DNA of 55,124 nt, from assembly GCA_024398105.1 (NCBI GenBank), contig JAKSJP010000016.1, positions 1 to 55,124 of the forward strand, in the 5' to 3' direction. A program made the position numbers and the translations under genes. The DNA is from Bacteroidales bacterium. Lineage in GTDB: Bacteria; Bacteroidota; Bacteroidia; Bacteroidales; UBA932. Shown in pieces: positions 4,958 through 21,123 of the stretch. The notes beneath the pieces are model-generated. The model searched no databases, was not told the origin of the DNA, and was given only the letters and a program-made list of their open reading frames with translations. Position 1 is the stretch's first letter. Each line of letters starts with the position of its first letter.

Positions 4958-4978
4958 TATCTAAAACGATTATATTTG
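4947..4978 (+). promoter_or_regulatory. Promoter of the susC/susD unit
   Basis: CTTG (4947-4950), 20 bases, then TATATTTG (4971-4978), an exact match to the Bacteroidetes -7 element. It overlaps the end of the MFS gene. The predicted start near 4985 gives a leader of about 170 bases before the susC ATG at 5156, and that leader contains two hairpins. Confidence 0.65.
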
Positions 4979-5023: not shown

Positions 5024-5074
5024 CGTATACATGCTTTACACTAACTACTTATTAAAATTGACTTATAGTTGCTT

Positions 5075-5104
5075 CTAGCCCTTTTTCAAGGGCTAGGGTT
5101 TTTT
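5075..5104 (+). terminator. Terminator-like hairpin in the susC leader (attenuator or MFS terminator)
   Basis: CTAGCCCTT, loop TTTC, AAGGGCTAG (5075-5096), a perfect 9-bp stem, followed by GG and six T residues. It has the form of an intrinsic terminator. It may simply end the MFS transcript, but it lies downstream of the best promoter for susC, so it could attenuate susC expression. Confidence 0.68.
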
Positions 5105-5155
5105 GTTGCATATATTTTACTAACTGTTTTATCATTAACCAACTCAATCAAACAC

Positions 5156-8100
5156 ATGAAAAGGTTTTTTCAAATCTGTTTGTCTCTTTTGCTCCTCACG
5201 GCAGCCATCCCTTCGATGGCAGCTGTCGTAGTGAAAGGTACTGTGACCGACCCATCCGGTGAACCTGTCATCGGAAGTGGTGTCGTTGAGCTTGGAACAA
5301 GCAATGGTGTGGTTACCGGTCCAGATGGTACTTATACCATCTCTGTAGCTTCATCAAGCTCAGTTCTCCAGTTCTCATGCATCGGATACAAGACTGTCGA
5401 GATTACTGTCGGCAATCAGAGTGTCATCGATGTGGTTCTCGAGGAAGAGACTTCATTCCTTCAGGAAACTGTCGTTGTGGGATACGGTTCTCAGAAGAAG
5501 GCCGACATCACATCTTCAGTCCAGAGCGTGAAATCTGACCAGTTCAATGCCGGCGCGATCCACGATGCAGGTCAGCTCATCCAGGGTAAGGTTGCAGGCC
5601 TTAACATCACCGTCTCATCGGGTGACCCTACCAAGAGCTCTTCAGTCATGCTCCGTGGTTATTCTTCACTCCTTGGCTCGACAGATCCTCTCGTCCTCGT
5701 GGATGGTATCCCAGGATCCCTCTCGACCGTGGCTCCAGAAGATATCGAGTCCATCGACGTCCTCAAGGACGGTTCAGCTACTGCTATCTATGGTACCCGT
5801 GGTACAAACGGTGTCATCATCATTACCACCAAGAACGCGAAGCGCGACATGCCTGCTACAATCGAATACAGCGGCTATGCTTCTGTGTCTACATGGGCAA
5901 AGTCTCCGGATTTCCTCCAGGCTTCTGACCTCCGCGACCTCTATAAGCAGGGCTACTCATTCTCAGGTGCGAACGACAAGGATTATGGTGACTCAGTGAA
6001 CTGGCTTGACGAGATCTCACGTACAGCCATCACCCACAACCACAACCTCTCTATCATGGGTGGAACCAAGAGCAACACATATACTGCTAATGTTACCTAT
6101 AACGACAATCAGGGAACTATAGTCGGTACAGGCCAGTCTACATTCCGTGCACGTGCGCAGGTTTCACAGTATCTCATCAACGACATGCTCAAGCTTACAG
6201 CCGAGGTCCTCGCTGACGAGACCAATGGAAAGACAGGCTTCAATCCTGACTATGTATACCGCCAGGCATGTATCCAGAACCCTACACAGCCTATCTACAG
6301 GGAGGACGGTACATATTTCGAGCGTCCTGTATACTTCTACGACAACCCTGTCTCATATATCAAGGAAAGGACAGGTATGAGCCGCAACAGGTCTGTAAGA
6401 TTCAACGGCGTCGCTGAACTCAAGCCTACCGACAACCTTACATTCAAGGCTTCATATGTCCGCAAGGGCCAGACCTCTATGACAGGTTACTACTACTCGC
6501 ACAATGATGTGACAACTACAGAGTCAGGATACAACGGATATGCTTCACGTTCAGCTTCCGACTATGTATACAATCTCTTCGAGGCTACTGCAAACTATCA
6601 GCAGGACTTCGGCGACCACCATGTGACAGGCGTCATCGGTTACAGCTACGAGGACCAGACTTCGGAGAACTTCAACATGAGCAACAGGAACTTCCCTACA
6701 GACATGTACCTCTACAATAACATTGGAAAGGGCCAGGGTCTTACCGAGGGAACCGCATCGGAGTATTCATACAAGCAGAGCAGCAAGCTCATCGGTCTTT
6801 TCGCCCGTGCTACCTACAACTACGATGACCGCTACCTCCTCATGGTCTCATACCGTCGTGACGGTTCGTCAAAGTTCGGTAAGGACAACCAGTGGGGTAA
6901 CTTCCCAGGTGTGTCACTCGGATGGCGTATCAACAATGAGGACTTCATGCAGAGTGCCACATGGCTCAACAACCTCAAGCTCCGTCTCGGTTACGGTGTG
7001 ACAGGTATCGACGTGAACAGCCCTTACCAGTCTCTCGCATCCCTCAACTATGATGGATTTTTCTACTCAAACGGCCAGTGGATTCCAGTCCTCACCCCTG
7101 TGAGAAACGACAATCCTAACCTCCGTTGGGAGAAGAAGTTCGAGTACAACCTCGGTCTCGACTTCGCAGTCCTCGACGAGAGACTGAGCGGATCTATCGA
7201 CGTTTATCAGAGAGATACCAAGGATGCACTCTTCAACTATACCGTTCCAGTGCCTCCATACCAGTACAGCTCTATCATGGCTAACGTAGGACACATCCGC
7301 AACCGTGGTGTCGAGGTCCTCATCAATGCTACTCCTGTGCTCACAAGCGACTTCAGGTGGAACACCTCACTCACTCTTTCTGCAAATGACAACCAGCTCG
7401 TCTCTCTCCAGAACGACGAGTTCCAGATGTCAACAGACTATTTCGATACAGGTTACACCGGAGAGCCTATCCAGACATCTACACACCGTGTGAAGGAAGG
7501 CTGGGCTATCGGTAACTTCTTCGGACTTAAGTCTGTCGGCCTCAACCAGGCTGGCAAGTGGGTTGTGGAGCGTTACAGCTTCGATGCTGACGGCAACGTC
7601 GTCGGAAGATATCCTGACCTTGCAGAGAATGCTTCTTCTGCAGACTGGCAGGTTCTCGGAAACGGTGTGCCAAGCTTCTACGCAAACTTCAACAACAACT
7701 TCTCTTACAAGAATTTTGACCTTGCGATCACAATGCGCGGTGCGTTCGGTTTCCAGGTGCTCAACTACCAGAAGCTCTTCTATGGTAACCCTACCATCCA
7801 GTACAATGTGCTCAAGTGCGCCTTCGACCCTATCGATGTGGTTGATGAGTACACAGGCCAGAAGACAGGTACGAAGACCGTCCTGAGCGACTCTCAGCGT
7901 TATGTGAGCTACTACATCGAGAACGGTGATTACTGGAAGATCGACAATGTGACCCTCGGATACACATTCAACTTCAAGAAGAACAACTTCATCAAGAAGA
8001 TCCGTGTCTACGGTTCAGCGAACAACCTCGCTACCATCACAAGCTACTCAGGTCTTGATCCGGAAATCCGCGTAAGCTACGGCGGCAACGGATATGACCC

Positions 8101-8170
8101 AGGTACAGATGACCGTGACAAGTATCCTACCATCCGTTCTTATACATTCGGTGTTAATGTGTCATTCTAA
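5156..8170 (+). CDS. SusC/RagA-family TonB-dependent outer-membrane transporter
   Basis: Imports a glycan or peptide through the outer membrane using TonB energy, capped by its SusD partner. The 1004-residue protein starts with a signal peptide (MKRFFQICLSLLLLTAAIPS, cleavage near MAA), then a carboxypeptidase-D-like regulatory domain (about 25-105), the SusC signature around LQETVVVGYG, a plug domain with LVLVDGIPG and GTRGTNGVIIITTK, and a long beta-barrel ending in aromatic-terminated FGVNVSF. I set the start at 5156 rather than 5069 because the upstream extension encodes the leader hairpin and the signal peptide begins at this Met. RagA/RagB-type members carry oligopeptides, which would suit the hydroxyproline operon downstream, but substrate is not readable from sequence. 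Confidence 0.95.
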   Translation: MKRFFQICLSLLLLTAAIPSMAAVVVKGTVTDPSGEPVIGSGVVELGTSNGVVTGPDGTYTISVASSSSVLQFSCIGYKTVEITVGNQSVIDVVLEEETSFLQETVVVGYGSQKKADITSSVQSVKSDQFNAGAIHDAGQLIQGKVAGLNITVSSGDPTKSSSVMLRGYSSLLGSTDPLVLVDGIPGSLSTVAPEDIESIDVLKDGSATAIYGTRGTNGVIIITTKNAKRDMPATIEYSGYASVSTWAKSPDFLQASDLRDLYKQGYSFSGANDKDYGDSVNWLDEISRTAITHNHNLSIMGGTKSNTYTANVTYNDNQGTIVGTGQSTFRARAQVSQYLINDMLKLTAEVLADETNGKTGFNPDYVYRQACIQNPTQPIYREDGTYFERPVYFYDNPVSYIKERTGMSRNRSVRFNGVAELKPTDNLTFKASYVRKGQTSMTGYYYSHNDVTTTESGYNGYASRSASDYVYNLFEATANYQQDFGDHHVTGVIGYSYEDQTSENFNMSNRNFPTDMYLYNNIGKGQGLTEGTASEYSYKQSSKLIGLFARATYNYDDRYLLMVSYRRDGSSKFGKDNQWGNFPGVSLGWRINNEDFMQSATWLNNLKLRLGYGVTGIDVNSPYQSLASLNYDGFFYSNGQWIPVLTPVRNDNPNLRWEKKFEYNLGLDFAVLDERLSGSIDVYQRDTKDALFNYTVPVPPYQYSSIMANVGHIRNRGVEVLINATPVLTSDFRWNTSLTLSANDNQLVSLQNDEFQMSTDYFDTGYTGEPIQTSTHRVKEGWAIGNFFGLKSVGLNQAGKWVVERYSFDADGNVVGRYPDLAENASSADWQVLGNGVPSFYANFNNNFSYKNFDLAITMRGAFGFQVLNYQKLFYGNPTIQYNVLKCAFDPIDVVDEYTGQKTGTKTVLSDSQRYVSYYIENGDYWKIDNVTLGYTFNFKKNNFIKKIRVYGSANNLATITSYSGLDPEIRVSYGGNGYDPGTDDRDKYPTIRSYTFGVNVSF

Positions 8171-8183
8171 ATTCCCGGTAGAA

Positions 8184-9872
8184 ATGAAAAATCTTAAGAT
8201 AACAACAATTGCAATGCTTGCGGCAGCGATGACTTCGTTCACCGCTTGCTTCAACCTCGATGAGGAGCCGTTCTCTGAGATTCTCCAGGAGTCATTCACT
8301 CCTTCAGCTCAGGACGTATCAGCATATCTCGCGAGTGCATATACTCCACTTGCATATTTCTGGGATTGGCAGGGCCTTTTCGACGCAGTCGAGGAGTCTG
8401 CTGACGTAGTCATCACTCCTGTACGTCCTAACGGTTGGGACGATGGCGGTACATACCAGCGTATGCACAAGCATACATGGACACCAGAGGAGTGGCAGCC
8501 TCAGAACACATATGAGACATGCTTCTCAGGTATCAATACATGTAACCGAGTACTCGGCCAGATCGAGTCAGGAGCCCTCAATGCAGGTGATGCGACTGAG
8601 AGCATGATCGCTGAACTCAAGGCTCTCCGTGCCCTTTGGTACTCAATCCTTCTCTCTACACATGGAAACGTTCCTATCGTAACTGCCTTCACTGACGAGG
8701 TCCCTACACAGGCTACCCGCAAGGAAGTATACGATTTCGTAGTGAAGGAACTTTCTGACGCAATCGGCAGCGGCCTCCTTACAAAGGAGAAGAGTGGTGT
8801 GACATATACCCGTCTCAACTACTGGAGCGCATCGATGTGTCTCATGCGTGTCTACCTCAATGCTGAGGCATATGTCGGTGTGAAGGCGTATGACAAGGCC
8901 CTTGCAATCGCTGAGGAGATCATCTCGGACAGCCCATATTCACTTTCTGCAACTTTCAGCGAGAACTTCATCGTGGATCTCGGCCCTTCTAACACAGAGG
9001 TGATGTTTGCCATCCCTTACGATGCTAAGAACTCTACCGGAGGCCACAAGAACTCGCAGAATCCAAAGTGGTATCCACCTGTATCGAAGAACTACTTCAA
9101 GTGGTCTTACCAGTGCTGGGGCGGAAGCTGTGCAAATCCTCAGTTCGTGGATTCATATCAGCCTGGTGACACCCGCAAGGAGCTTACCTGGATGTATGGG
9201 CCATGCGAGGCAGACGGAGAGATCGTGTGGACAAACCTCAACTATCTCCCTTCACTTACTTCAAAGGATGACAGTGGTAACTCAATGACCAGCATCGACT
9301 TCGGTCTCCGTCAGATCAAGTTCGAGCCGGATGTGAAGACTACCTTCAACTGGGGCAATGACTTCCCTTATTTCCGTCTTGCTGAGGCTTACTATACAGC
9401 TGCTGAGTGCATCCTCCGCGGTGAGGCCAGCAAGAAGGGCAACAATGCAGCCGACCTCGTGAACGCTGTCCGTACCCGTGTGGCTCCTGCTACCGACGAG
9501 GCTACCCTCAGAGGCAACACCAAGATGGTCTATGGTCTCCTTCCATGGGGCTCGCTTACAAAGGAGACTTGGGAGAAGTGCGATAGTGACCACGACTGGT
9601 CTTCAGTCGTTGCAGAGCTCGAGGCATCACAGAAGCCGATCCAGTCTGGTGCCGATGCTATCCCTGTCACCCTTGGCGGTATGTACGACGAGTGGGGATG
9701 GGAGTTCGCACTCGAGGGCCGCAGACGTGATGACATGATCCGTTTCGGTACATTCTCAAGCAAGAGCTGGTTCAACCACGAGGCTATTCCTGACGGTCAT
9801 ACCGCTCTCTTCCCGATTCCGCTTGACGTGCTCAACACCAACGGTAACATGAAGCAGAATCCTGGATATTAA
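8184..9872 (+). CDS. SusD/RagB-family surface lipoprotein
   Basis: The substrate-capturing lid of the SusC transporter, anchored at the cell surface. The 562-residue product has a lipoprotein signal with lipobox FTAC (Cys22), then the helical TPR-like SusD fold (KALRALWYSILLSTHGNVP, FRLAEAYYTAAECILRG) and the C-terminal EFALEGRRRDDMIRFG segment typical of SusD proteins. The start at 8184 is 13 bases after the susC stop; an open extension to 8094 lies inside susC and is not credible. Transcribed with susC and probably the next lipoprotein gene. Confidence 0.95.
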   Translation: MKNLKITTIAMLAAAMTSFTACFNLDEEPFSEILQESFTPSAQDVSAYLASAYTPLAYFWDWQGLFDAVEESADVVITPVRPNGWDDGGTYQRMHKHTWTPEEWQPQNTYETCFSGINTCNRVLGQIESGALNAGDATESMIAELKALRALWYSILLSTHGNVPIVTAFTDEVPTQATRKEVYDFVVKELSDAIGSGLLTKEKSGVTYTRLNYWSASMCLMRVYLNAEAYVGVKAYDKALAIAEEIISDSPYSLSATFSENFIVDLGPSNTEVMFAIPYDAKNSTGGHKNSQNPKWYPPVSKNYFKWSYQCWGGSCANPQFVDSYQPGDTRKELTWMYGPCEADGEIVWTNLNYLPSLTSKDDSGNSMTSIDFGLRQIKFEPDVKTTFNWGNDFPYFRLAEAYYTAAECILRGEASKKGNNAADLVNAVRTRVAPATDEATLRGNTKMVYGLLPWGSLTKETWEKCDSDHDWSSVVAELEASQKPIQSGADAIPVTLGGMYDEWGWEFALEGRRRDDMIRFGTFSSKSWFNHEAIPDGHTALFPIPLDVLNTNGNMKQNPGY

Positions 9873-9903: not shown

Positions 9904-11118
9904 ATGATTATGAACAACAGATTTATAGCATTGTCTCTCGCTGCTGTGGCTCTCGTGAGCTGCAACAAGTACGAGAAGCTTAATCCAGACGTCCCTTTCA
10001 ACGAGAGGGAGAAGATCGAGGTGTTCGGCGGCTCTGGCAATCTCGTCACCTTTGATGGAGCCGAGACAAAGAGCACCTATACCTGGGATGCATCCGGCTC
10101 TGCGATCAACGTAATCGTGAATATCGACCTCGAGGAGTACCTCACCGCTGACAACCTCAAGGGTGGCTATGAGCTCGGTCACTTCACTCTTCCGGTTTCT
10201 GACATCAACGCTTTCCTTGGCACGTTCGTGGGATCGGAAATTGACGAGTCTACTTTCTACGGTCTCAATGCTGATGGAAGCAAGGCTGACAAGTTCACTT
10301 CTTACGCTCCTGGCATGTGGGTGGATGTAGATGGAAATCCATGCTCTTGGAGCGAGGGTGTCACATTCTGGCAGTGGTATGTATGGAGCAGTACTTCATA
10401 TGACTACGACATCGAGGAATTCCCTTCAATCCTCTATATCGGTGCAAATCCTGGAAACACCACCGCGGCTGTCTCAGGCAAGACCGTGGCTTGCAAGAAC
10501 ATCATTGTGGTCGATGGAGAGAACTATGAGTTCAACGTGACCGTGAAGTTCTCAACAACCGAAATGGAAGATCCAGAGGATGCGACGCCGGGCAGCACCG
10601 AGCCTACCGGTGAGGGCTTCCTTTACGCGCGTGACTACGAGATGACAGAGACCGCTCACAAGTATACATATTCTGTTACAGACAAGGGCGTGACCATCAA
10701 TGCAGAGATATCAAAGGCTTACAACTTTGACGTGCAGGAGGAGGATTGGGTAGTAGGCTACTTCAAACTCAATTCTGCAATGCTCAAGGGCATCGTGGGC
10801 GACGTTGACCTCTCTGACATCGAGGTGTTCTATCCGCTCAATGCTGACGGCGAGAAGTATACCAATGCTGACGGTGAGACCAAGTGGACCACATATGCTC
10901 CTGGTCAGTGGGTGGATGCGGACGGCAATGGCTGCGGATGGTCAGCAGGCCACATCTACTGGTTCTACCAGAACTTCGCCGACTATGAAGGCTACAAGGC
11001 TGTCGATGCGTTCTGCATCGGTTTCAACCCTGACAATGCAGAGGTGGGCGAGACCGTGACATCCAAGAACATGCTCAACGGAATTCCTTTCAACGTAGTC
11101 GTTAAGATCGTTGAATAA
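9904..11118 (+). CDS. Surface lipoprotein with two tandem DUF4859-like domains
   Basis: A 404-residue lipoprotein (signal peptide, lipobox LVSC with Cys20) occupying the third position of the susC/susD unit, where surface ligand-binding proteins are usually encoded. It contains the same domain twice: residues near 70-215 and 250-404 each carry FYGLNADG or FYPLNADG, then TSYAPGMWVDVDGNPCSW or TTYAPGQWVDADGNGCGW. The WVD(V/A)DGN(x)C pattern looks like DUF4859 of Bacteroidetes surface proteins; that assignment is from memory. ATG 9910 (two codons in) is an equally good start. A strong terminator follows. Confidence 0.82.
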   Translation: MIMNNRFIALSLAAVALVSCNKYEKLNPDVPFNEREKIEVFGGSGNLVTFDGAETKSTYTWDASGSAINVIVNIDLEEYLTADNLKGGYELGHFTLPVSDINAFLGTFVGSEIDESTFYGLNADGSKADKFTSYAPGMWVDVDGNPCSWSEGVTFWQWYVWSSTSYDYDIEEFPSILYIGANPGNTTAAVSGKTVACKNIIVVDGENYEFNVTVKFSTTEMEDPEDATPGSTEPTGEGFLYARDYEMTETAHKYTYSVTDKGVTINAEISKAYNFDVQEEDWVVGYFKLNSAMLKGIVGDVDLSDIEVFYPLNADGEKYTNADGETKWTTYAPGQWVDADGNGCGWSAGHIYWFYQNFADYEGYKAVDAFCIGFNPDNAEVGETVTSKNMLNGIPFNVVVKIVE

Positions 11119-11170: not shown

Positions 11171-12865
11171 ATGGGAAAAATCAGAACTGTATTCTGCTGT
11201 CTTCTGGCTGCTTTCATCCTGGCTTCATGCGGAGAGAAGGAGCCGGAGGTGTTCGGTACGATCACCCTCAGCAAGACTGAGATCGGGTTCTCGGCCAAGG
11301 AGGCTGACGCGCAGTCTTATCTTAAGATTTCTTCTACATATCAGTGGGAGGCAACCATGGACGTGCCATGGCTGTCGATGAGCGTGACCAGAGGCGAGGC
11401 CGGGACGGAATACCGTTCCATCGTAAGTGCAAAGACCAACAGCCTTCAGGAAAGCCGTGTCGGAACGATCACCATCAAATCCGGACTCGCGGAGAAGAAA
11501 GTGACGGTGACCCAGTCCAGAGGCAGCCTGACAATCTCCAAGGAAGATGTCAAGGACTTAGACAGGATCTACATACCTAAGGAATACGAGGGGGAGAAAT
11601 TCTTCTCAAGTGAAGGTAAGTGGTTCTTCGGAAGGAGTGCTCAGTCGGAGCATTTCATAGTGTTCTGGGAACCAGGTTTCGGCGAGTTTGGCGATACGAA
11701 TCCGTCCAATTGCCCGAATACGAGGTACAGGGTGGACATAAACGCCCTCCTGTCCTGGGCAGAGCAGTGCTACGAGTGTTATGTCAATACTTTGAAGTTC
11801 GCTGAGAAAGGCAAGACCATCCTTGACAACACCAAGGTTGACATCTGGCTTCAGTATTCGACCGAGTGGGCTGCATACGGCTCAGGCCTTGAGGACAAGG
11901 TCGGATGTCTTTGGATAAATCCGGATGCCGCAAATGACAAGTCAACCCTGGCCCATGAGATCGGACATTCCTTCCAGTATATGGTCGGCTGTGACCTTCT
12001 GAAGAACAGGACGGTCAACAGCACCGCAAGCGCTGCATTCAGGTATGACATCGGTCAGGGCAACGGGTTCTGGGAGCAGACAGCCCAGTGGCAGGCCTAT
12101 GTCATGGTGCCTTCGGAGACTTTCACGAACTATAACTTCGGAGAGTATTGCAAGAATGTCCATAAGCACCTGCTTCACGAGGACAACCGTTATACCAACT
12201 ATTTCATCCATCATTACTGGACTGATAAATACGGTATCGGAGCGGTCGCTGATGTGTGGAAATCCGCTAGGTCTCCAAAAGATGCCGTCCAGGTGTATCA
12301 GGCTCTGCACAACCTGTCCATGGAGGAACTCAATGCGCAGTTCTATGACTATGCGGCACATGTTGCGACATGGGACTTCAAGGGTCTTGCCGAGACAGGC
12401 GTCAGCTATCTGAACAAATTCGCCTGGAATTATGTGAAGGACGAAGAAGGCTGGTACAAGGTCGGCAGCAGCGTCTGCCCTGAGGCTACGGGCTTCAATA
12501 TCATCTGGCTTAATGGAGCAGCCAAGGGGGAGAAGGTCAAAGTCGAGTTCGAAGGCCTTCCTGATGAACCGGGATACAACAGTTCCGGCTCTGCATCTGA
12601 CAGTGGCTGGACCATTGGCTTCGTCGCTCTTGCCTCTGACAAGAAGGTCCGTTACTACAGCACTCCGACCATGGCTGGAGCCGATACGGGATTAAAGGCT
12701 TCCGCTGAGTGGACAGTTCCGGAGGATGCCTACAGGGTGTGGGCGGTCATTGCTGCAACGCCTAAGAACTATATCGTCCACAGGTGGGACGACAATAATT
12801 CCAACGACATTCACTGGCCTTACAGGATCAAAGTGGAGGGCGCGACTCCGGTCAACGTCAAGTAA
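11171..12865 (+). CDS. BACON-domain lipoprotein with an HEIGH metallopeptidase-like domain
   Basis: A 564-residue exported lipoprotein (lipobox LASC, Cys20). Residues about 27-117 form a BACON domain, a Bacteroidetes all-beta module often next to carbohydrate- or mucin-active domains (ITLSKTEIGFSA ... WLSMSVTRGEAG ... GTITIKSG). Residues about 150-420 hold a zinc-protease-like region with HEIGH at 262-266 and a possible third ligand Glu302 in FWEQTAQWQ, a pattern I associate with DUF6055. The last 120 residues look like a beta-sandwich. Likely a surface protein that binds and perhaps cleaves a protein or glycoprotein. It lies between two terminators, right after the susCD unit. Peptidase activity is inferred only from the motif. 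Confidence 0.84.
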   Translation: MGKIRTVFCCLLAAFILASCGEKEPEVFGTITLSKTEIGFSAKEADAQSYLKISSTYQWEATMDVPWLSMSVTRGEAGTEYRSIVSAKTNSLQESRVGTITIKSGLAEKKVTVTQSRGSLTISKEDVKDLDRIYIPKEYEGEKFFSSEGKWFFGRSAQSEHFIVFWEPGFGEFGDTNPSNCPNTRYRVDINALLSWAEQCYECYVNTLKFAEKGKTILDNTKVDIWLQYSTEWAAYGSGLEDKVGCLWINPDAANDKSTLAHEIGHSFQYMVGCDLLKNRTVNSTASAAFRYDIGQGNGFWEQTAQWQAYVMVPSETFTNYNFGEYCKNVHKHLLHEDNRYTNYFIHHYWTDKYGIGAVADVWKSARSPKDAVQVYQALHNLSMEELNAQFYDYAAHVATWDFKGLAETGVSYLNKFAWNYVKDEEGWYKVGSSVCPEATGFNIIWLNGAAKGEKVKVEFEGLPDEPGYNSSGSASDSGWTIGFVALASDKKVRYYSTPTMAGADTGLKASAEWTVPEDAYRVWAVIAATPKNYIVHRWDDNNSNDIHWPYRIKVEGATPVNVK

Positions 12866-12888: not shown

Positions 12889-12916
12889 AAGCTCCATCGA
12901 AAAAATGGGGCTTTTT
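12889..12916 (+). terminator. Intrinsic terminator after the BACON lipoprotein gene
   Basis: AAGCTCCAT (12889-12897) pairs with ATGGGGCTT (12905-12913, one G-U pair) around loop CGAAAAA, followed by further T residues. It separates the surface-protein genes from the catabolic operon that starts at 13016. Confidence 0.78.
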
Positions 12917-12941
12917 CCTTATTATTCTGCTGTAGATTTGC

Positions 12942-12949
12942 TATATTTG
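12942..12949 (+). promoter_or_regulatory. -7 element ahead of the P5C dehydrogenase operon
   Basis: TATATTTG is an exact TAnnTTTG match and is preceded by a second match, TAGATTTG, at 12933-12940. No clear TTTG lies 19-20 bases upstream (TTAT or CTTA at that spacing), so this may be a regulated promoter. It would give a leader of roughly 60 bases before ATG 13016. Confidence 0.5.
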
Positions 12950-13015: not shown

Positions 13016-14650
13016 ATGAGAAATTCAATTGTAACATTCCCGCTTCCGGCAAACGAGCCGGTAAAGTCTTACCTCAAGGGCTCTCCAGAGCGTGTTGCTC
13101 TCGAGGCTGAGCTTGAGCGTCAGAGCAACACCGTAGTCGATATTCCTATCATCATCGGTGGAAAGGAGATCCGTACAGGAGATACCGGTAAGGTAGTATG
13201 TCCTCATGACCACCAGCACGTACTTGCAACTTACCACAAGGTAGGTGAGAAGGAGATCCAGATGGCTATCGACGCAGCTATGGAGGCTCACAAGCAGTGG
13301 TCTGAGACTGACTGGACAGTAAGAGCTGCCATCGTCCTCAAGTGCGCTGAGCTCCTCGCTACAAAGTACCGTCCTGTCCTCAATGCGGCTACCATGCTCG
13401 GACAGAGCAAGAACTTCTACCAGGCAGAGATCGACTCAGCCTGCGAGACAATTGACTTCTTCCGCTACAACGTACATTACGCTTCGAAGATCTACTCAAT
13501 GCAGCCTAAGGATGCTCCTAACTGCATCGACCATACAGAGTTCCGTCCTCTCGAGGGTTTCGTCCTCGCTGTGACTCCGTTCAACTTCGCATCTATCGCA
13601 TCGAACCTCTGTATGACTCCTGTCCTCATGGGTAACGTCGCTATCTGGAAGCCATCTACGACTTCTCTCCTCAGCAACTACTATCTCATGCAGCTCTACA
13701 AGGAGGCAGGCGTTCCTGACGGCGTAGTCAACTTCCTCCCAGGAAGCGGTGCTCTCATCGGCAAGGTCTGCACAAACTCAAAGTGGTTTGCAGGTATCCA
13801 CTTCACAGGCTCTACAGGCACATTCAACTCACTCTGGCAGCAGGCTGGCGCCAACCTCGGCAAGTATGTCTCATATCCACGCCTCGTAGGCGAGACAGGT
13901 GGAAAGGACTTCATCTTCGCTACTCCTTCTGCGGATCCTAAGGCTGTCGCTACTGCAGTATTCTGCGGCGCGTTCGAGTTCCAGGGACAGAAGTGCTCTG
14001 CAGCTTCACGTATGTACTGCCCTAAGAGCATCTGGCCAGAGGTACTCGCAGGTGTGAAGGCTATGGCAGCAGAGGCAAAGATGGGTGACGTGATGGATCC
14101 AAGGAACTTCATCAACGCTGTCATCGACGAGAAGTCATTCGACAACATCTCATCATACATCGAGTATGCAAAGCAGTCACCTGACGCACAGATCGTGATG
14201 GGCGGCAAGTGCGACAAGAGTGTCGGCTACTTCGTTGAGCCTACAGTCATCGAGACCACAGATCCTCACTTCAAGTCAATGGAGGAGGAGATCTTCGGAC
14301 CTGTCATCACAGTCTATCCATACGACGACGACAAGGTCGATGAGGCAGTAGAGCTCTGCGACACAACCTCTCCATACGGCCTCACAGGCTGCGTATTCGG
14401 ACAGGACCGCCTCGCAGTCCAGAAGGTAGCTGACAGACTCCGCTATGCTGCGGGTAACTTCTACATCAACGACAAGCCTACCGGAGCAGTCGTAGGTTGC
14501 CAGCCATTCGGCGGCTCACGTGCTTCAGGTACCAACGACAAGGCAGGTGGTGAGTTCAACCTCATCCGCTGGGTCATCCCAAGAGTGATCAAGGAGACTC
14601 TCGTCTCACCTACCGACTATCGCTACGGCTACATCAAGGAAATGATGTAA
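13016..14650 (+). CDS. L-glutamate gamma-semialdehyde (P5C) dehydrogenase
   Basis: Oxidises glutamate semialdehyde, the open form of 1-pyrroline-5-carboxylate, to glutamate with NAD(P)+. The 544-residue product is an aldehyde dehydrogenase with general base Glu293 (LVGETGGKDF), catalytic Cys327 (FQGQKCSAASR), the cofactor-binding FTGSTGTF, and the C-terminal FGGSRASGTNDKAGG of P5CDH. Length fits the stand-alone P5CDH type; no proline dehydrogenase domain is present. ATG 13016 gives the normal N-terminus; the open extension to 12878 runs through the terminator and promoter. It heads the operon that contains HypD, whose product is P5C, so here it likely serves hydroxyproline rather than proline breakdown. 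Confidence 0.94.
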   Translation: MRNSIVTFPLPANEPVKSYLKGSPERVALEAELERQSNTVVDIPIIIGGKEIRTGDTGKVVCPHDHQHVLATYHKVGEKEIQMAIDAAMEAHKQWSETDWTVRAAIVLKCAELLATKYRPVLNAATMLGQSKNFYQAEIDSACETIDFFRYNVHYASKIYSMQPKDAPNCIDHTEFRPLEGFVLAVTPFNFASIASNLCMTPVLMGNVAIWKPSTTSLLSNYYLMQLYKEAGVPDGVVNFLPGSGALIGKVCTNSKWFAGIHFTGSTGTFNSLWQQAGANLGKYVSYPRLVGETGGKDFIFATPSADPKAVATAVFCGAFEFQGQKCSAASRMYCPKSIWPEVLAGVKAMAAEAKMGDVMDPRNFINAVIDEKSFDNISSYIEYAKQSPDAQIVMGGKCDKSVGYFVEPTVIETTDPHFKSMEEEIFGPVITVYPYDDDKVDEAVELCDTTSPYGLTGCVFGQDRLAVQKVADRLRYAAGNFYINDKPTGAVVGCQPFGGSRASGTNDKAGGEFNLIRWVIPRVIKETLVSPTDYRYGYIKEMM

Positions 14651-14661
14651 TGATTTAATAC

Positions 14662-14701
14662 GCAATACGCAGCCTCGCGACCGGCGAGGTTGCGTTATTG
14701 C
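14662..14701 (+). repeat. Long intergenic inverted repeat, terminator-like without a T tract
   Basis: GCAATACGCAGCCTCGC (14662-14678) pairs with GCGAGGTTGCGTTATTGC (14684-14701) with one bulged base and one G-U pair around a 5-base loop. There is no U-run after it, so it is more likely an mRNA-stability or partial-termination element that lowers expression between P5CDH and the next gene. Confidence 0.6.
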
Positions 14702-14741
14702 TATGATATCCAGTAACAAACCGACTAATTACACTGACGAA

Positions 14742-16376
14742 ATGAAAAAGATAGCAACATTGCTCCTCGCTGCTGCCGCAGTATTCTGCGCATTCTCGTG
14801 CAGCACTGACAAGAAGTTCACACTGGTAGTCCCTGAGTGTGAAATCACAACTCCTCCTGATTCATTGAATCTTGATTCTTTCTACAAGAAGTACGTCAAC
14901 GCAAACGGTATCCACATCATTTCGTCTGAAAGGGTGGCTGACTCTGTCCTCAGACAGGCGTTCAAGACCATTTACACCATGACCAGCGCCCTCCCTGCAG
15001 AAGTGGTGGGAGCTATGGCCAAGGTAAATACCAAGGTTGCCATCATGGCGCGTTACGAGGGAACTGAAGACATCCCTGAACACAGCTACATGGCCAACCG
15101 CGACACATCTGACATCGTCCTCAACTGGAACCTCAGGGCGAGAGGTCTCGGCGGAAGCGTACGTTTCCCTATGACTTCAGGCGCAGAGGAGAACGTCATG
15201 GGCTATCAGATCGACAAGTACCATGCAGAGGATATCCTCCTCCATGAGTTCTCGCATTCAATCCATCTTGTAGGTATCTGCCAGGTAGATCCTTCAATCA
15301 ATGACAAGCTTGAGGCCCTTCTTGCAAAGGCAAGGGAGGAGCACAGGTTTGACAACACTTACGCACAGACAGACATTGCTGAGTATTGGGCAGAAGGCGT
15401 CCAGGACTGGTTCAACGTCAACGCCGAGATGCCATATTCAGACGGCAAGCATAACTGGGTCAACACCCGCGAGGAACTCAAGGCCTATGACCCAGGTCTC
15501 TATGAGCTCATCGCTCAGTACTTCCCTCCGATCGAGGAACAGATCGGACGCCATCCATACGTCAACCTCTATGGCCCGGATTCGAAGCCGGAACCTGAGA
15601 GCGCTGAGGAACAGGCGTTCAAGACTCCTGAGTACACCATAACCGCCCCTCCTAAGGAGCTCAAGCTTCCTAAGTTCTACAGCAAGCATGTCAATGTCAA
15701 CGGAATTCCTATCGTATCCTCATGGCGAGTTCCAGACTCATGTTTCGTACAGGCTGAGAAGATCATCTATGCGATGACCAACATGCTCCCTGAGCGCGTC
15801 CTCAAGGCAATGGTCGACAAGGGCACACGCGTCGCAATCATGGCACGTTACGAGGGTACCACCGACATCCCTGAGCATGCATACATGCTCGACCACTCGG
15901 AGACCGGCGTCAACATGGACGTACGCGCAAGAGGTCTCGAGGGAACTCTCGAGCTTCCTCTCACCACATGCGCGGAGGAGAACATCCTCGGCTACCAGAT
16001 CGACCAGTACCATGCGGAGGACATCCTCATCCACGAGTTCGCACACTCGATCCAGCTCATCGGTATCGAGAGCGTGGATCCTGAGTTCCATGACAAGCTC
16101 CAGGGCCTTCTCGACAAGGCAATGGCAGAAGGCAAGTACAAGAACGTCTATGCAAACACCAATGCTACTGAGTACTGGGCAGAAGGTGTCCAGGACTGGT
16201 TCAACTGCAACGCCGAGATGCCTAAGGCAGACGGCAAGCATTTCTGGGTAAACACCCGTGAGGACCTCAAGGCTTATGACCCAGGTCTCTACGAGCTCAT
16301 CTCGCAGTATTTCCCTGCATTCGAAGGCCAGCTCAGCAAGCATAAGAAAGTAAATCTCTATACATCAGAAAACTAA
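14742..16376 (+). CDS. Lipoprotein with two tandem HExxH metallopeptidase-like domains
   Basis: A 544-residue exported lipoprotein (lipobox AFSC, Cys20) built from two copies of one domain of about 250 residues, offset by 263 residues. Copy 1 has HEFSH at 168-172 and Glu218 in YWAEGVQDWFN; copy 2 has HEFAH at 431-435 and Glu481 in the same YWAEGVQDWFN context. The HExxH plus a downstream Glu is the zinc-ligand pattern of gluzincin proteases. Other shared blocks are RVAIMARYEGT(T/E)DIPEH and NTRE(D/E)LKAYDPGLYELI. I do not recognise a named family. ATG 14742 starts a clean signal peptide; the 13-codon extension to 14703 lies next to the hairpin. Six bases separate it from aminopeptidase P. Both copies keep their motifs, so both may be active. 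Confidence 0.85.
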   Translation: MKKIATLLLAAAAVFCAFSCSTDKKFTLVVPECEITTPPDSLNLDSFYKKYVNANGIHIISSERVADSVLRQAFKTIYTMTSALPAEVVGAMAKVNTKVAIMARYEGTEDIPEHSYMANRDTSDIVLNWNLRARGLGGSVRFPMTSGAEENVMGYQIDKYHAEDILLHEFSHSIHLVGICQVDPSINDKLEALLAKAREEHRFDNTYAQTDIAEYWAEGVQDWFNVNAEMPYSDGKHNWVNTREELKAYDPGLYELIAQYFPPIEEQIGRHPYVNLYGPDSKPEPESAEEQAFKTPEYTITAPPKELKLPKFYSKHVNVNGIPIVSSWRVPDSCFVQAEKIIYAMTNMLPERVLKAMVDKGTRVAIMARYEGTTDIPEHAYMLDHSETGVNMDVRARGLEGTLELPLTTCAEENILGYQIDQYHAEDILIHEFAHSIQLIGIESVDPEFHDKLQGLLDKAMAEGKYKNVYANTNATEYWAEGVQDWFNCNAEMPKADGKHFWVNTREDLKAYDPGLYELISQYFPAFEGQLSKHKKVNLYTSEN

Positions 16377-16382
16377 CAGATC

Positions 16383-17780
16383 ATGTTCGCAAAAGAAACA
16401 TACATCCGCAGACGTGCCCAGCTCAAGAAGGACATGGGCAAGGGACTTCTTCTTTTCCTCGGTAACGAGGAGGCCCCTATGAACTATCTTGACAACACCT
16501 ATCCATTCCGTCAGGACAGTTCTTTCCTCTATTTCTTCGGTCTCAGCTACGCTTCTCTTGCAGCAGTGATCGACATCGACGAGGACAAGGAGATAATCTT
16601 CGGCAATGAGCTCACCATCGACGATATCGTATGGCAGGGCACACAGCCTACACTCAAGGAGAAGAGTTCTCTCGTGGGAGTCCAGGAGACTCTCCCTATG
16701 TCAGAGCTCAGGAACTATCTGGCAAAGGCTCAGTCAAAGGGTCAGAAGATCCATTTCCTCAATCCATACAGAGGCGACCACAAAGTAATGCTTCACGAGC
16801 TTCTCGGCGTCGCAACGGCTGAGATTCCTTCAGCGGCGTCCCTCGAGTTCACAAAGGCCATCATCAAGCAGCGTAACTATAAGAGCGCCGAGGAGATCGC
16901 CGAGATCGAGAAGGCTGTGGACATCAGTACAAGGATGCATCTCCAGGCATACAAGATGATCAAGCCGGGCATGCATGAGGCTGAGGTCGCAGCTGCGATC
17001 CTCAAGATCGCGAACGAGCAGGAAGGCACATGCCTCTCATTCCCTACGATCGCTACGATCGAAGGCCAGGTGCTTCACAACCATGGCTTCATCCATACCG
17101 CGAAGGCAGGCGACCTTTTCCTCGTGGATGCAGGCGCAGAGAGCGCTGAGCACTATGCAGGTGACCTTTCTTCTACTTTCCCAGTAAGCGACAACTTCAC
17201 AGAGAAGCAGGCGCTCATCTACAACATCCATCTCGAGAGCTTCAAGGCTGCGGTCGACACGCTCGGAGTGGGCGTTCCTTTCCGTAAGGCACACATCGCG
17301 GCCGCTACAAAGATCGTGGAAGGCATGAAGGAGATCGGTCTCATGAAGGGCAATGCTGCAGATGCGGCTGAGAGCGGTGCATACGCAATCTTCTTCCCAT
17401 GTGGTCTCGGCCATATGATGGGCCTTGACGTGCATGACATGGAGAATCTCGGCGAGCAGTATGTAGGCTATGCGGAAGGCATGCAGAAGAGCACACAGTT
17501 CGGCTTCAAGTCCCTCCGTCTCGCACGTCCTCTCGAGCCAGGTTTCGTATTCACTGTCGAGCCAGGAATCTATTTCATGCCGGAGCTCATCGACAAGTGG
17601 CATGCGGAGAAGAAGTTCACCGAGTTCATCAACTATGACAAGATCGAGGAGTGGAAGGGCTTCTCAGGCCTCCGCAACGAGCTCGACTATGTCATCGAGG
17701 AGAACGGAGCAAGAATGCTCGGCTCTCTGAAGAAGCCTATGACCATCGAGGAAGTGCTCGCAGCAAAGAACATGGACTAA
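16383..17780 (+). CDS. pepP: Xaa-Pro aminopeptidase (aminopeptidase P, M24B)
   Basis: Removes the N-terminal residue from peptides whose second residue is proline, in the cytoplasm. The 465-residue protein has the AMP_N domain (about 1-140) and the pita-bread metallopeptidase domain with the expected dinuclear-metal ligands: Asp249 (VDAGAE), Asp261 (AGDLSSTFP), His344 (GLGHMMGLDVHD), Glu393 (TVEPGIYF) and Glu433 (LRNELDYVI). It has no signal peptide. Six bases after the tandem HExxH lipoprotein gene and 24 before hypD, so it belongs to the same transcript; X-Hyp bonds would be a logical substrate here. Confidence 0.93.
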   Translation: MFAKETYIRRRAQLKKDMGKGLLLFLGNEEAPMNYLDNTYPFRQDSSFLYFFGLSYASLAAVIDIDEDKEIIFGNELTIDDIVWQGTQPTLKEKSSLVGVQETLPMSELRNYLAKAQSKGQKIHFLNPYRGDHKVMLHELLGVATAEIPSAASLEFTKAIIKQRNYKSAEEIAEIEKAVDISTRMHLQAYKMIKPGMHEAEVAAAILKIANEQEGTCLSFPTIATIEGQVLHNHGFIHTAKAGDLFLVDAGAESAEHYAGDLSSTFPVSDNFTEKQALIYNIHLESFKAAVDTLGVGVPFRKAHIAAATKIVEGMKEIGLMKGNAADAAESGAYAIFFPCGLGHMMGLDVHDMENLGEQYVGYAEGMQKSTQFGFKSLRLARPLEPGFVFTVEPGIYFMPELIDKWHAEKKFTEFINYDKIEEWKGFSGLRNELDYVIEENGARMLGSLKKPMTIEEVLAAKNMD

Positions 17781-17804
17781 GCACATTACAAAAATTGAAT
17801 TGAA

Positions 17805-20207
17805 ATGAAGAACTTTCCTATAAAATACCCTCAGAACGACGGGGGAATGAACGACAGAGTCAAGAGACTCCATGCCGAGAGCCTTGAGACACCTGCTACT
17901 CTTACAATCGAGAGAGCATTGATCGAGACAGCGTTCTACAAGGAAAACTATGGCAAGTATCCGATCGCGATCCTCAGGGCGAAGAACTTCTATGAGATCT
18001 GCAGGAAGAGAACCATCTATATCGGCAAGGACGAGCTCATCGTCGGTGAGAGAGGACCGCTTCCAAAGGCTGTCCCTACATTCCCTGAGCTTACCTGCCA
18101 TTCTGTAGAGGACCTTCACGTCCTCAACGAGCGTGACCTCCAGCCGTATCTCATCAGCCAGGAGGACATCGATACCTACGAAAGGGAAGTGATTCCTTAC
18201 TGGGAGGGTAAGACCCAGCGCGAGAGAATCTTCAACCACGTGTCAAAGGAGTGGGAAGAGGCATACCATGCAGGTGTGTTCACTGAGTTCATGGAGCAGA
18301 GAGCCGCAGGCCATACTGCCATGGACGGAAAGATGTACCATGAAGGCCTTCTCGACGTGAAGAAGAGAATCGCTGCTGCAATCGCGGCCCTCGACTATAT
18401 CAATGACCCTGAGGCTACTGACAAGCAGCAGGAGCTCGAGGCAATGGAAATCTCATGCGATGCGGCAATCCTCCTCGCAGAGCGCCATGCCCAGCTTGCC
18501 GAAGAGATGGCAGCCAAGGAGTCTGACCCTCAGAGGAAGGCAGAGCTCGAGAAGATCGCGGATGTCTGCCACTGGGTACCTGCAAATGCCCCTAGGGATA
18601 TATGGGAGGCAATCCAGATGTACTGGTTCGTCCATCTCGGAACTGTCACCGAGCTCAATGGTTGGGACAGCATGAACCCTGGCCATATCGACCAGCACCT
18701 CTATCCTTTCTACCAGAAGGGCATCGAGGACGGTTCTCTCACCCGTGACAAGGCAAAGGAGCTTCTCTCTTGCCTGTGGGTCAAGTTCAACAACCAGCCG
18801 GCTCCTCCTAAGGTGGGAATCACCGCCAAGGAGTCAGGTACATACAACGACTTCACCAACATCAACATCGGTGGCGTAGACCGTGACGGCAATGCTGTAG
18901 CCAACGAGATCTCATACATCGTACTTGAGATCCAGGAAGAGCTCCATGAGCTCCAGCCAGGCCTCAGCGTACATATCGCAGAGGGAACTCCGGACGAGCT
19001 TCTCCATGCAGGCATCAAGGTCATCCGCCAGGGACATGGCTATCCTTCACTCTTCAATCCTGACACATATGTACAGGAGCTTGTGAACCAGGGCAAGTCT
19101 CTCGAGGACGCCCGTGAAGGCGGTTGCTCAGGCTGTATCGAGGTAGGTGCCTTCGGTAAGGAGGCTTACCTTCTCACAGGTTACCTCAATACTCCTAAGG
19201 TGCTCGAGATCACTCTCCACAACGGTATCGACCCTGAGACCGGAAAGAAGATCGGAATCGAGACCGGCGATCCTCGCCAGTTCAAGTCATACGAGGAACT
19301 CTATGATGCTTGGCACAGGCAGATGGTCTACTTCGTGAACCTCAAGCTCGGCGTCAACAACTACATCGAGAGGATGTTCTCACTCTACGCTCCAGCGACC
19401 TTCCTCAGCCTCTTCATCGACGACTGTATCGCAAAGGGCAAGGACTACTACAGCGGCGGCGCGAGATACAACACCACATACATCCAGTGTACCGGCCTCG
19501 GAACGATCACCGACTGCTTCACCACAATCAAGAAGCATGTCTTCGAGGATGGAAAATATACCATGGACCAGATCATCTCAGCCTGCGACAACAACTTCGA
19601 AGGCGAGGAGAAGATGAGGCAGTATATACGCAACCATACTCCGTTCTTCGGCAACGACGACGAGTATGCTGACACTATTGCCGTAAAAGTCTATGACGAC
19701 CTCGTGGCCGCCATAAAGAACCATCCTAACACCCGTGGCGGAAAGACCCAGCTCAATATGCTCAGTACGACCTGCCACAACTACTTCGGCTCTGTCTGCG
19801 GTGCAACTCCTAACGGACGTTTCGCACACTTCGCGATCAGCGACGGTACATCTCCTTCACATGGTTCAGACACCAACGGTCCTACCTCTGTCGTAAGATC
19901 GCTCGGCAAGCTCGACCAGACAAAGGGTGGCGGTACGCTTCTCAACGTACGCTTCCTCCCTTCTCTCCTCAAGAGGGACGAGGATGTGGCAAAGCTCGGT
20001 AAGCTCGTAAGGGAGTACTTCAAGCTGGGAGGCCACCATATCCAGTTCAACATCATTGATACTGAGACCCTCCTCGATGCGCAGAAGAATCCTGACAACT
20101 ACAAGGATCTCCTTGTCAGAGTCGCCGGCTACTCAGACTACTTCAACGACATGAGCTGCCAGCTCCAGAACGAGGTTATCGCAAGAACTGAAAACTCAGA
20201 GCTCTAG
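17805..20207 (+). CDS. hypD: trans-4-hydroxy-L-proline dehydratase (glycyl radical enzyme)
   Basis: Dehydrates trans-4-hydroxy-L-proline to (S)-1-pyrroline-5-carboxylate by glycyl-radical chemistry; oxygen-sensitive and cytoplasmic. The 800-residue protein has the PFL-like domain and a C-terminal radical loop RVAGYSDYF with Gly775. The thiyl Cys444 and base Glu446 lie in SGCIEVGAFGKEAY. From memory of the characterised Clostridioides difficile HypD (F152, H160, S334, D339, F340, C434, E436, Y450, T645, G765), every residue is present here at +10: F162, H170, S344, D349, F350, C444, E446, Y460, T655, G775. That constant offset separates it from choline, glycerol and propanediol relatives. Its activase gene follows 7 bases later. 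Confidence 0.95.
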   Translation: MKNFPIKYPQNDGGMNDRVKRLHAESLETPATLTIERALIETAFYKENYGKYPIAILRAKNFYEICRKRTIYIGKDELIVGERGPLPKAVPTFPELTCHSVEDLHVLNERDLQPYLISQEDIDTYEREVIPYWEGKTQRERIFNHVSKEWEEAYHAGVFTEFMEQRAAGHTAMDGKMYHEGLLDVKKRIAAAIAALDYINDPEATDKQQELEAMEISCDAAILLAERHAQLAEEMAAKESDPQRKAELEKIADVCHWVPANAPRDIWEAIQMYWFVHLGTVTELNGWDSMNPGHIDQHLYPFYQKGIEDGSLTRDKAKELLSCLWVKFNNQPAPPKVGITAKESGTYNDFTNINIGGVDRDGNAVANEISYIVLEIQEELHELQPGLSVHIAEGTPDELLHAGIKVIRQGHGYPSLFNPDTYVQELVNQGKSLEDAREGGCSGCIEVGAFGKEAYLLTGYLNTPKVLEITLHNGIDPETGKKIGIETGDPRQFKSYEELYDAWHRQMVYFVNLKLGVNNYIERMFSLYAPATFLSLFIDDCIAKGKDYYSGGARYNTTYIQCTGLGTITDCFTTIKKHVFEDGKYTMDQIISACDNNFEGEEKMRQYIRNHTPFFGNDDEYADTIAVKVYDDLVAAIKNHPNTRGGKTQLNMLSTTCHNYFGSVCGATPNGRFAHFAISDGTSPSHGSDTNGPTSVVRSLGKLDQTKGGGTLLNVRFLPSLLKRDEDVAKLGKLVREYFKLGGHHIQFNIIDTETLLDAQKNPDNYKDLLVRVAGYSDYFNDMSCQLQNEVIARTENSEL

Positions 20208-20214
20208 TCAAGGA

Positions 20215-21123
20215 ATGAACCTGATATTCGATATCAAGCGTTTCGCAATGAATGATGGTCCGGGAATCCGGACCACCATTTTTCTAAAAGGCTGCCCGCT
20301 CAGATGCGTCTGGTGCCACAATCCCGAGAGCTGGTCCCTCGACATGCAGAAGTCCTATAAGAAGAACAAATGCATAGGATGCCACAGCTGTGTCGATGCC
20401 TGCCCTCAGGGAGCCATCACCCTCACCAAGGACGGCATCATGCCTACTGCCAACCCATGCATCGCTTGTGGAAAGTGTGCTGAGGAATGTCCGACGCTTG
20501 CTCTTGAGATGACCGGCAAGGAGTGGAAGATGGACGAGCTGATGAAGGTCGTCGAGAAGGAGCGCGGAATGATGGTGGACAGCGGAGGAGGTGTCACGCT
20601 CTGCGGAGGCGAACCCCTCATGCAGCCGGCTTATTGCGTCGAGCTTCTCAAGGAGCTTGGACGCAGGGGATTCCACAGGGCAGTCGACACGACTCTGTTT
20701 GCTGCACCTGCGATTGTCAGGGAAGTGGCTGAAAACTGTGAGCTCTTCCTGGTCGACCTTAAGGTGATGGATTCAGAGAAGCATAAGTTCTGGACAGGAG
20801 TGCCGAACGAGCGCATACTTGAGAACATAAGGCTCATCTCCGAGCTCGGCTGCAGGTACTGGATCCGTATCCCCCTCATCAATGAGGTCAATGCGGACGA
20901 GGCCAACATCGAGGCTTCCGCAGCTTTCCTCGAGTCACTTCCTGTGAAACCGGAGATGGTCAACCTGCTGCCTTACCATGATGTCGGCAAGGGCAAGCAC
21001 GAGAGGCAGTGGACGGAGTACAATCCTGAGCATTACCAGATGACGACACCTTCCGTCGAGGATCAGGAACGAGCTGTAGCCCAGTTCAAGAACCATGGGC
21101 TTGATGCTAAGATAGGGGGGTAA
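20215..21123 (+). CDS. Radical-SAM glycyl radical enzyme activase for HypD
   Basis: Installs the glycyl radical on HypD using S-adenosylmethionine and a [4Fe-4S] cluster. The 302-residue protein has the radical-SAM triad CPLRCVWC (Cys27, 31, 34) and an inserted ferredoxin-like domain with two more cluster motifs, CIGCHSCVDACP (53-63) and CIACGKCAEECP (82-92), as in the activases of non-PFL glycyl radical enzymes. The SAM-binding GGG(V)TLCGGEP segment follows. It begins with the usual IFDIKRFAMNDGPGIRTT. It is the last gene of the operon. Confidence 0.95.
   Translation: MNLIFDIKRFAMNDGPGIRTTIFLKGCPLRCVWCHNPESWSLDMQKSYKKNKCIGCHSCVDACPQGAITLTKDGIMPTANPCIACGKCAEECPTLALEMTGKEWKMDELMKVVEKERGMMVDSGGGVTLCGGEPLMQPAYCVELLKELGRRGFHRAVDTTLFAAPAIVREVAENCELFLVDLKVMDSEKHKFWTGVPNERILENIRLISELGCRYWIRIPLINEVNADEANIEASAAFLESLPVKPEMVNLLPYHDVGKGKHERQWTEYNPEHYQMTTPSVEDQERAVAQFKNHGLDAKIGG

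Follow-up and report, generated by a model that had tools for sequence, protein, structure and literature searches.

Among the closest described counterparts of the locus presented here is the Clostridioides difficile pair of HypD and its activase HypD-AE (PDB 6vxc); in clostridia, the product that HypD forms from hydroxyproline (Hyp) is reduced to proline (PMC11574389). The locus lies in a 55,124-nucleotide stretch from a Bacteroidales bacterium (assembly GCA_024398105.1, contig JAKSJP010000016.1), which is referred to as the window, and centers on five genes at 13,016 to 21,123. It shares with the clostridial system the enzyme family, the active site, and an activase alongside, but the adjoining genes differ and encode a 1-pyrroline-5-carboxylate (P5C) dehydrogenase (P5CDH), an X-Pro peptidase, and a lipoprotein that resembles Pro-Pro endopeptidases (PPEPs). 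The lipoprotein recalls PPEP-1, -2, and -3, which have the ATLF fold and belong to peptidase family M34; it differs from them in its identity of about 15–20%, its tandem domains, its lipid-anchored type, and a Pfam ATLF score under the cut-off.

Three other systems resemble the genes around this core. A DUF6055 protein encoded upstream matches the peptidase region of Svx of Pectobacterium and has the same HExxH motif with a downstream Glu, but it carries a BACON domain, and the spacer between HExxH and Glu is 35 residues here, 21 in the relative L299, and 22 in Svx (PMC9266454; L numbers denote fetched loci of relatives and G numbers genomes, G000 being the window's own). As in Bacteroidota SusCD polysaccharide utilization loci, SusC, SusD, surface proteins, and enzymes are clustered; unlike in those loci, the enzymes beside SusCD are peptidases and enzymes of amino-acid catabolism, and a scan of the window genes from 2290 to 23033 turned up no glycoside hydrolase. 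The hypBA1/hypBA2/hypAA system of Bifidobacterium and its Xanthomonas homologues target arabinosides on Hyp-rich glycoproteins, and in X. euvesicatoria a prolyl oligopeptidase gene, judged a pseudogene by the authors, adjoins the homologous system (PMC6085000). The Bifidobacterium system, which is the one known from the gut for extensins, yields arabinose (PMC6085000), whereas here the protein backbone and its Hyp are the proposed food.

With moderate confidence, we read the window as holding a utilization locus for Hyp-rich peptides, most likely from plant extensins, that ends in glutamate. A surface DUF6055 gluzincin (Svx-like) and the tandem PPEP-like lipoprotein would cut Pro/Hyp-rich stretches outside the cell or in the periplasm, and the peptides would be imported through SusC/SusD and perhaps a pair of major facilitator superfamily (MFS) transporters. 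A cytosolic M24B peptidase would then cut X-Pro and X-Hyp bonds, HypD, activated by its radical-SAM partner, would dehydrate free Hyp to P5C, and P5CDH would oxidize P5C to glutamate as the presumed main end product, while ProC, whose gene lies on another contig, would provide a side route to proline. The gene identities, the active site of HypD, and the conserved grouping can be seen in the sequences; the substrates of the two metallopeptidases, the cell locations, the transport, the plant origin of the food, and glutamate as chief product are inferred.

The five genes and their products

The five genes are co-directional, as the earlier note on this DNA had described from its letters alone. 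The features of this region are as follows.

12889..12913, + strand: terminator-like hairpin, then a T run (z −2.1; 7 of 200 shuffles fold equally well)
12933..12949, + strand: two TAnnTTTG promoter-like matches before the P5CDH gene (pattern at chance level window-wide)
13016..14650, + strand: P5C (glutamate semialdehyde) dehydrogenase (TIGR01236; best solved relatives are P5C dehydrogenases; operon-type in the tree)
14662..14701, + strand: strong intergenic hairpin between the P5CDH and lipoprotein genes (−29.9 kcal/mol, z −6.2, poor T run)
14703 or 14742..16376, + strand: tandem HExxH lipoprotein with two PPEP-like domains (from motifs and fold; lipobox by eye)
16383..17780, + strand: M24B X-Pro peptidase, aminopeptidase P or prolidase (Pfam AMP_N and Peptidase_M24; export signal not seen by eye)
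17805..20207, + strand: HypD (NF043068 over the cut-off; match to 6vxc; active-site residues kept)
20215..21123, + strand: HypD activase, a radical SAM protein with CX3CX2C and extra 4Fe-4S motifs (TIGR02494 over the cut-off; Fer4 domains)

The identities proposed earlier for HypD and P5CDH hold, both proteins scoring over their equivalog cut-offs: HypD reaches 1149 bits on NF043068 (cut-off 1100) and P5CDH 748.7 bits on TIGR01236 (cut-off 613.6). Among solved sequences, HypD is nearest to that of C. difficile (6vxc, E 1.1e-278). Sequence alignment establishes its active site, with all 14 residues checked from the list in PMC7077986 identical, including Asp278 and Asp339, which that paper calls conserved in HypD only; Asp292, also named there, is Phe both in the window and in 6vxc and was left out of the 14. 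For the activase, NF043069 is the best equivalog model, yet its 321.6 bits lie below the cut-off of 425; position and motif suggest that the protein acts as the HypD activase.

The peptidase had been called aminopeptidase P. The M24B X-Pro class stands, and the protein may be either an aminopeptidase P or a prolidase: it scores far under both cut-offs (166 bits versus 465 on PRK10879, and 158.7 versus 339 on the prolidase model PRK13607), and the name should read X-Pro peptidase because its closest solved sequences are Xaa-Pro dipeptidases.

HExxH occurs twice in the lipoprotein, at residues 181 and 444. A Z-ranked search with its predicted fold puts PPEP-3, PPEP-2, lethal factor, and PPEP-1 at the top, and along with this ATLF fold the protein has HExxH, a catalytic Tyr, and a Glu as third zinc ligand. 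Sequence signals are fainter: Pfam ATLF scores 20.6 bits against a gathering score of 27.4, with 18 of 30 rows matching at E ≤ 0.1, a profile search returned lethal factor with E 0.053, followed by a designed protein (0.79) and then an ATLF-like one (1.7), and a direct sequence search against solved structures gave no match. The modeled fold thus points to a Pro-Pro-endopeptidase-like protein with putative Pro-Pro cutting activity. A diverged relative (34%) is encoded in the same genome at G000:C44:28377-29081.

The gaps from the lipoprotein gene through the peptidase and HypD genes to the activase gene are 6, 24, and 7 bases, exactly as first noted. P5CDH is the first of the five genes, as had been said, but its junction is looser, with 52 bases to the lipoprotein ATG at 14703 or 91 to the ATG at 14742, the lipoprotein signal start. 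These bases and their strong hairpin part P5CDH from the rest, so that a single transcript of all five genes is only a candidate in this genome. The hairpin at 14662–14701 is very stable and may tune expression. The hairpin and promoter-like matches between the DUF6055 and P5CDH genes, for their part, suggest two neighboring transcription units. Two kinds of evidence were not counted as strong. TAnnTTTG, the Bacteroidetes-type −7 promoter consensus, occurs 11 times in the window against 11.08 expected, and the base composition of the operon (52.9% G+C) is close to that of the window (53.3%).

Recurrence and probable movement of the gene set

A search for the gene order in other Bacteroidales had been suggested as a check, and relatives do keep the gene set. 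A named sample of the 80 closest HypD loci includes 61 with 6 kb of upstream sequence, in which partners were counted by tblastn on the same strand at no less than 50% identity. The peptidase lies upstream of HypD in 38 of these, the lipoprotein in 31, P5CDH in 19, and all three in 17. At the P5CDH–lipoprotein junction the median gap in 17 loci is 9 bases, with at most 30 bases in 11 of them; the other medians are −4 for lipoprotein–peptidase (n = 23), 19.5 for peptidase–HypD (n = 32), and −0.5 for HypD–activase (n = 54). Each frame was extended to its earliest possible start codon, a choice that biases the gaps toward short values; the window is included. Two loci, L047 and L090, have the same partners rearranged in the order HypD–activase–P5CDH–lipoprotein. 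This order was read from gene lists made with a crude longest-frame picker that at times chose opposite-strand frames; presence and GH127 counts were made by tblastn instead. Among cultured carriers, Prevotella communis E15-14 (L092) has the genes for the lipoprotein, peptidase, HypD, and activase, and Phocaeicola oris 14-104 (L097) has P5CDH in its operon.

A broader sample of 120 HypD loci was drawn evenly from the order, many of its stretches ending at contig ends. Of its HypDs, 98 are at 46–53% identity, and 94 of these have the activase upstream; the other 22 are at 66–73%, and 21 of them have it downstream (activases counted without an identity limit); the window, with its activase downstream of HypD, differs in this from the more distant group. 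P5CDH at 50% identity or above occurs in none of the 120 and the lipoprotein in one, L186, whose HypD belongs to the distant group and which also has an S9 peptidase and two matches of GH127 type. The six lowest-scoring loci, examined in addition, have neither, and the two sets together cover 126 of the 128 other genomes of the order with HypD over the cut-off (G177 and G329 left out). A universal Bacteroidales operon was therefore rejected, with P5CDH at that identity in 0 of 126 stretches: the full operon belongs to a subset of Bacteroidales, since the order loci show no such P5CDH and nearly all lack the lipoprotein, and its partners meet again elsewhere.

Genomes with the lipoprotein carry HypD over the cut-off more often than the rest, both in the order (10 of 14 versus 118 of 378, p 0.003) and in the family (5 of 7 versus 10 of 91, p 0.0008), and the same holds for DUF6055 in the order (7 of 14 versus 16 of 378, p 2e-6). 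The window's own genome was excluded from these tests, as were the weak lipoprotein matches in G085, G119, G214, and G441, and the strict cut-off placed G300 (contig edge), G470, and G411 among genomes without HypD.

Phylogeny places the window copies with other operons. Six congeners of the genome have no close P5CDH, no lipoprotein, and no HypD over the cut-off. A tree built from 38 P5CDHs joins the window copy to 21 operon copies (100/98) and separates it from the 14 best own-family copies with DNA available. Record titles assign 13 of these 21 to Prevotellaceae, Muribaculaceae, Bacteroidaceae, and Porphyromonadaceae; the other eight are labeled Bacteroidales or more broadly, and some may belong to the window's own family. 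HypD, in a quick FastTree of 38 of the 120 order loci that carries a long-branch warning, stands beside operon copies and two own-family HypDs (94). From these trees, transfer of the gene set between lineages appears the simplest reading, with loss in relatives as the alternative.

A second type of X-Pro aminopeptidase (Creatinase_N_2/M24) lies beside HypD in 5 of 10 family genomes examined, at L309 (genome of L321), L310, L311, L314 (genome of L318), and L319. Since these HypDs belong to several groups, HypD and proline peptidases appear to meet repeatedly. The HypD of the family member G439 (L316) is identical to that of a metagenome-assembled genome from sheep omasum (L080), a hint to the habitat of the family. 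Other scanned neighbors include proline peptidases (S9 and the second M24 type), M64, GH97, GH94, MBOAT, araA, a sugar kinase, a GTPase, a phosphatase, M16, a helicase, and further one-off finds; four more proteins matched nothing.

The earlier note's proposal of a dedicated pathway for Hyp peptides gains from the conserved grouping, the second gene order, the P5CDH tree, and the PPEP-like fold, while its contrast with ProC was wrong as stated.

The source of hydroxyproline and the fate of P5C

The genes upstream of the operon extend the earlier reading, which had neither these nor a food source.

2290-3657 and 3626-4957, + strand: two overlapping MFS transporter genes (Pfam MFS_1)
4971..4978, + strand: TAnnTTTG, −7 promoter match before susC (weak evidence)
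5069..8170, + strand: SusC-type TonB-dependent outer-membrane transporter (Pfam Plug, TonB_dep_Rec_b-barrel, CarbopepD_reg_2)
8094..9872, + strand: SusD-type binding lipoprotein (open reading frame bounds, true start probably further in; Pfam SusD_RagB, SusD-like_3)
9904..11118, + strand: DUF4859 protein, possible surface binding protein (Pfam)
11171..12865, + strand: BACON-DUF6055 protein, predicted gluzincin zinc metallopeptidase distantly related to Svx (fold model, HExxH and Glu)

The fold model of the DUF6055 protein is that of a gluzincin and matches lugdulysin, LTA4 hydrolase, M1 peptidases, and collagenases. All 13 aligned DUF6055 domains weakly match the Svx model, and all 13 have HExxH and a downstream F-x-E Glu. 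DUF4859 relatives occur in the DUF6055-bearing loci L039, L046, L060, L067, L074, and L083, and a DUF4859 protein in L288. The MFS pair is a possible inner-membrane import step whose membership in the system we infer; relatives of the pair (up to 43 and 68% identity) lie near the HypD operon in L083. A second DUF6055 protein is encoded at G000:C2:49377-50753. Downstream of the operon, a UvrA-like ABC protein is encoded at 23059-25320, and its relative at L083:12400-14661 lies between HypD and the activase.

Loci of lipoprotein relatives point to plant glycoproteins. Outside the window's operon the lipoprotein has 25 strong places, of which 19 were fetched, L186 is one more, and five were not fetched; among the 19, L287 has a HypD and L290 is the paralogue of the window's own genome. 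SusC occurs in 9 of the 19, DUF6055 in 5, and GH127/146-type beta-L-arabinofuranosidases in 9, which by genus form about six separate groups. For comparison, GH127 occurs in 2 of the 120 order HypD loci and in none of the 41 named ones that lack the lipoprotein. Pfam itself confirms GH127 in six of the nine (L284, L286, L288, L289, L299, L300) and in L044, which with L039 makes up the HypD-operon loci with GH127 matches. The clusters read GH127–SusC–SusD–lipoprotein in L284, GH127–lipoprotein–SusC–SusD–DUF4859–DUF6055 in L288, and SusC–SusD–DUF6055–lipoprotein–GH43–GH127–DPPIV in L299. In L053, L-arabinose isomerase (araA) and an FGGY kinase directly precede the operon. GH127/146 enzymes release beta-arabinose from Hyp in extensins (PMC10850190, PMC6085000), and carrot extensin is cleaved by Svx (PMC13164431). 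A herbivore or rumen is named in 32 of 80 HypD record titles, a weak hint given that the background frequency is uncontrolled.

Several observations weigh against an extensin utilization locus. PF07944 covers both GH127 and GH146, and some members have arabinan or arabinogalactan as substrate (PMC10850190). The scan of genes around the window's operon showed no GH127, the five GH127/146 genes of its genome all lie on other contigs, and GH127 is present in only 2 of the 39 named HypD loci that carry the lipoprotein; the GH127 queries, moreover, were drawn from four lipoprotein loci and L044, which favors the count. The large neighbors in L292, L298, and L302 are DPPIV, sortilin-type, and FtsX-type proteins. 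The DUF6055 protein scores 61 bits on the Svx model NF040510 (cut-off 625), over the peptidase region only (about one-third of the model) and not the acyltransferase-like domain. Foldseek gave no hit for the lipoprotein under E 0.001 and no PPEP among the 50 rows listed, its first hit being a collagenase with a poor TM-score. The enrichment p-values are too small owing to kinship among genomes, and no gene for freeing N-terminal Hyp was identified.

The same pathway could instead be fed by collagen or gelatin peptides, which we judge unlikely. HypD metabolism has been tied to collagen breakdown (PMC11574389), the Foldseek first hit is a collagenase peptidase domain, collagenases are among the DUF6055 fold matches, and the target of the lipoprotein need not be Pro-Pro bonds. 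The collagenase alignments of the lipoprotein, however, have a root-mean-square deviation above 10 and TM-scores of 0.31–0.36, collagenase is absent among the 50 rows of the Z-ranked search, which PPEP and lethal factor lead, and collagen offers no evident use for the genes of GH127/146, GH43, GH51-like, and arabinose enzymes that other genomes have close to the lipoprotein or operon. On balance, plant Hyp-rich glycoproteins are favored over collagen as the probable food.

A second question is what becomes of P5C. P5CDH had been taken to stand in for ProC. This replacement was rejected, for the window's own genome has a proC homologue (G000:C3:6232-7020; 171.8 bits, below the strict model cut-off of 196.75), and P5CDH is an addition; by their genes, both fates of P5C, proline and glutamate, are thus open in this genome. 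No proline dehydrogenase was found in it (91.8% complete by estimate, which makes absences provisional), and this makes it likelier that P5CDH serves HypD. No ornithine aminotransferase passed the cut-off there, a negative that counts little: a contig edge truncates the best match (172.3 of 378.4 bits), and of 14 control genomes just one reaches the cut-off. The genome has two glutamate dehydrogenase matches and one glycyl radical domain.

HypD might feed proline synthesis through ProC while P5CDH serves another source of P5C, the two being neighbors and not one pathway. Beyond the presence of proC and the 52–91 bases and hairpin that set P5CDH apart, this account can draw on HypD loci without P5CDH (42 of 61 named within 6 kb upstream; all 120 order loci and six more), on P5CDHs common in family genomes without a HypD match, and on ornithine aminotransferase as a possible source. 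It is nevertheless rather improbable, as no proline dehydrogenase was found, a rearranged gene order still keeps P5CDH together with the lipoprotein and HypD, and its copies group by operon, not with those of their own family.

The lipoprotein, with its fold match to PPEP-1 of C. difficile, whose substrates are adhesion proteins (PMC11460543), might trim the cell's own Pro-rich surface proteins and have no feeding role. Adhesin genes were not searched for; its relatives adjoin SusCD and glycoside hydrolases or sit inside Hyp operons, which makes such a role quite improbable. Finally, activity of the HypD-like enzyme on a substrate other than Hyp, which is its predicted one, is far less probable still in view of the equivalog score and the 14 of 14 active-site residues, Asp278 and Asp339 among them (PMC7077986).

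A candidate route from extensin to glutamate

Extensins are common plant wall proteins and resist breakdown. The single reactions considered here are known; in the parts of the literature searched, the full gene set with a plant food source was not found described, HypD was not joined with extensin or with this operon (earlier HypD papers may mention a HypD–P5CDH operon), and no report of a Pro-Pro endopeptidase lipoprotein from Bacteroidota was found. The locus is thus a candidate extensin (Hyp-peptide) utilization locus with a PPEP-like lipoprotein, built from known parts. The wider proposal is a complete anaerobic route from extensin backbone to glutamate, in which a HypD operon mobile as a unit among Bacteroidales lineages is fed by surface peptidases that act on Pro/Hyp runs, including a lipoprotein Pro-Pro/Hyp-Hyp endopeptidase; it is tentative, with chances somewhat short of even. 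The conserved set of peptidases, HypD, and P5CDH would offer a route for extensin protein that is direct and open to testing, and the PPEP-like lipoproteins would be a new enzyme group to assay. If this is true, wall glycoproteins would be a nitrogen source for herbivore-gut bacteria.

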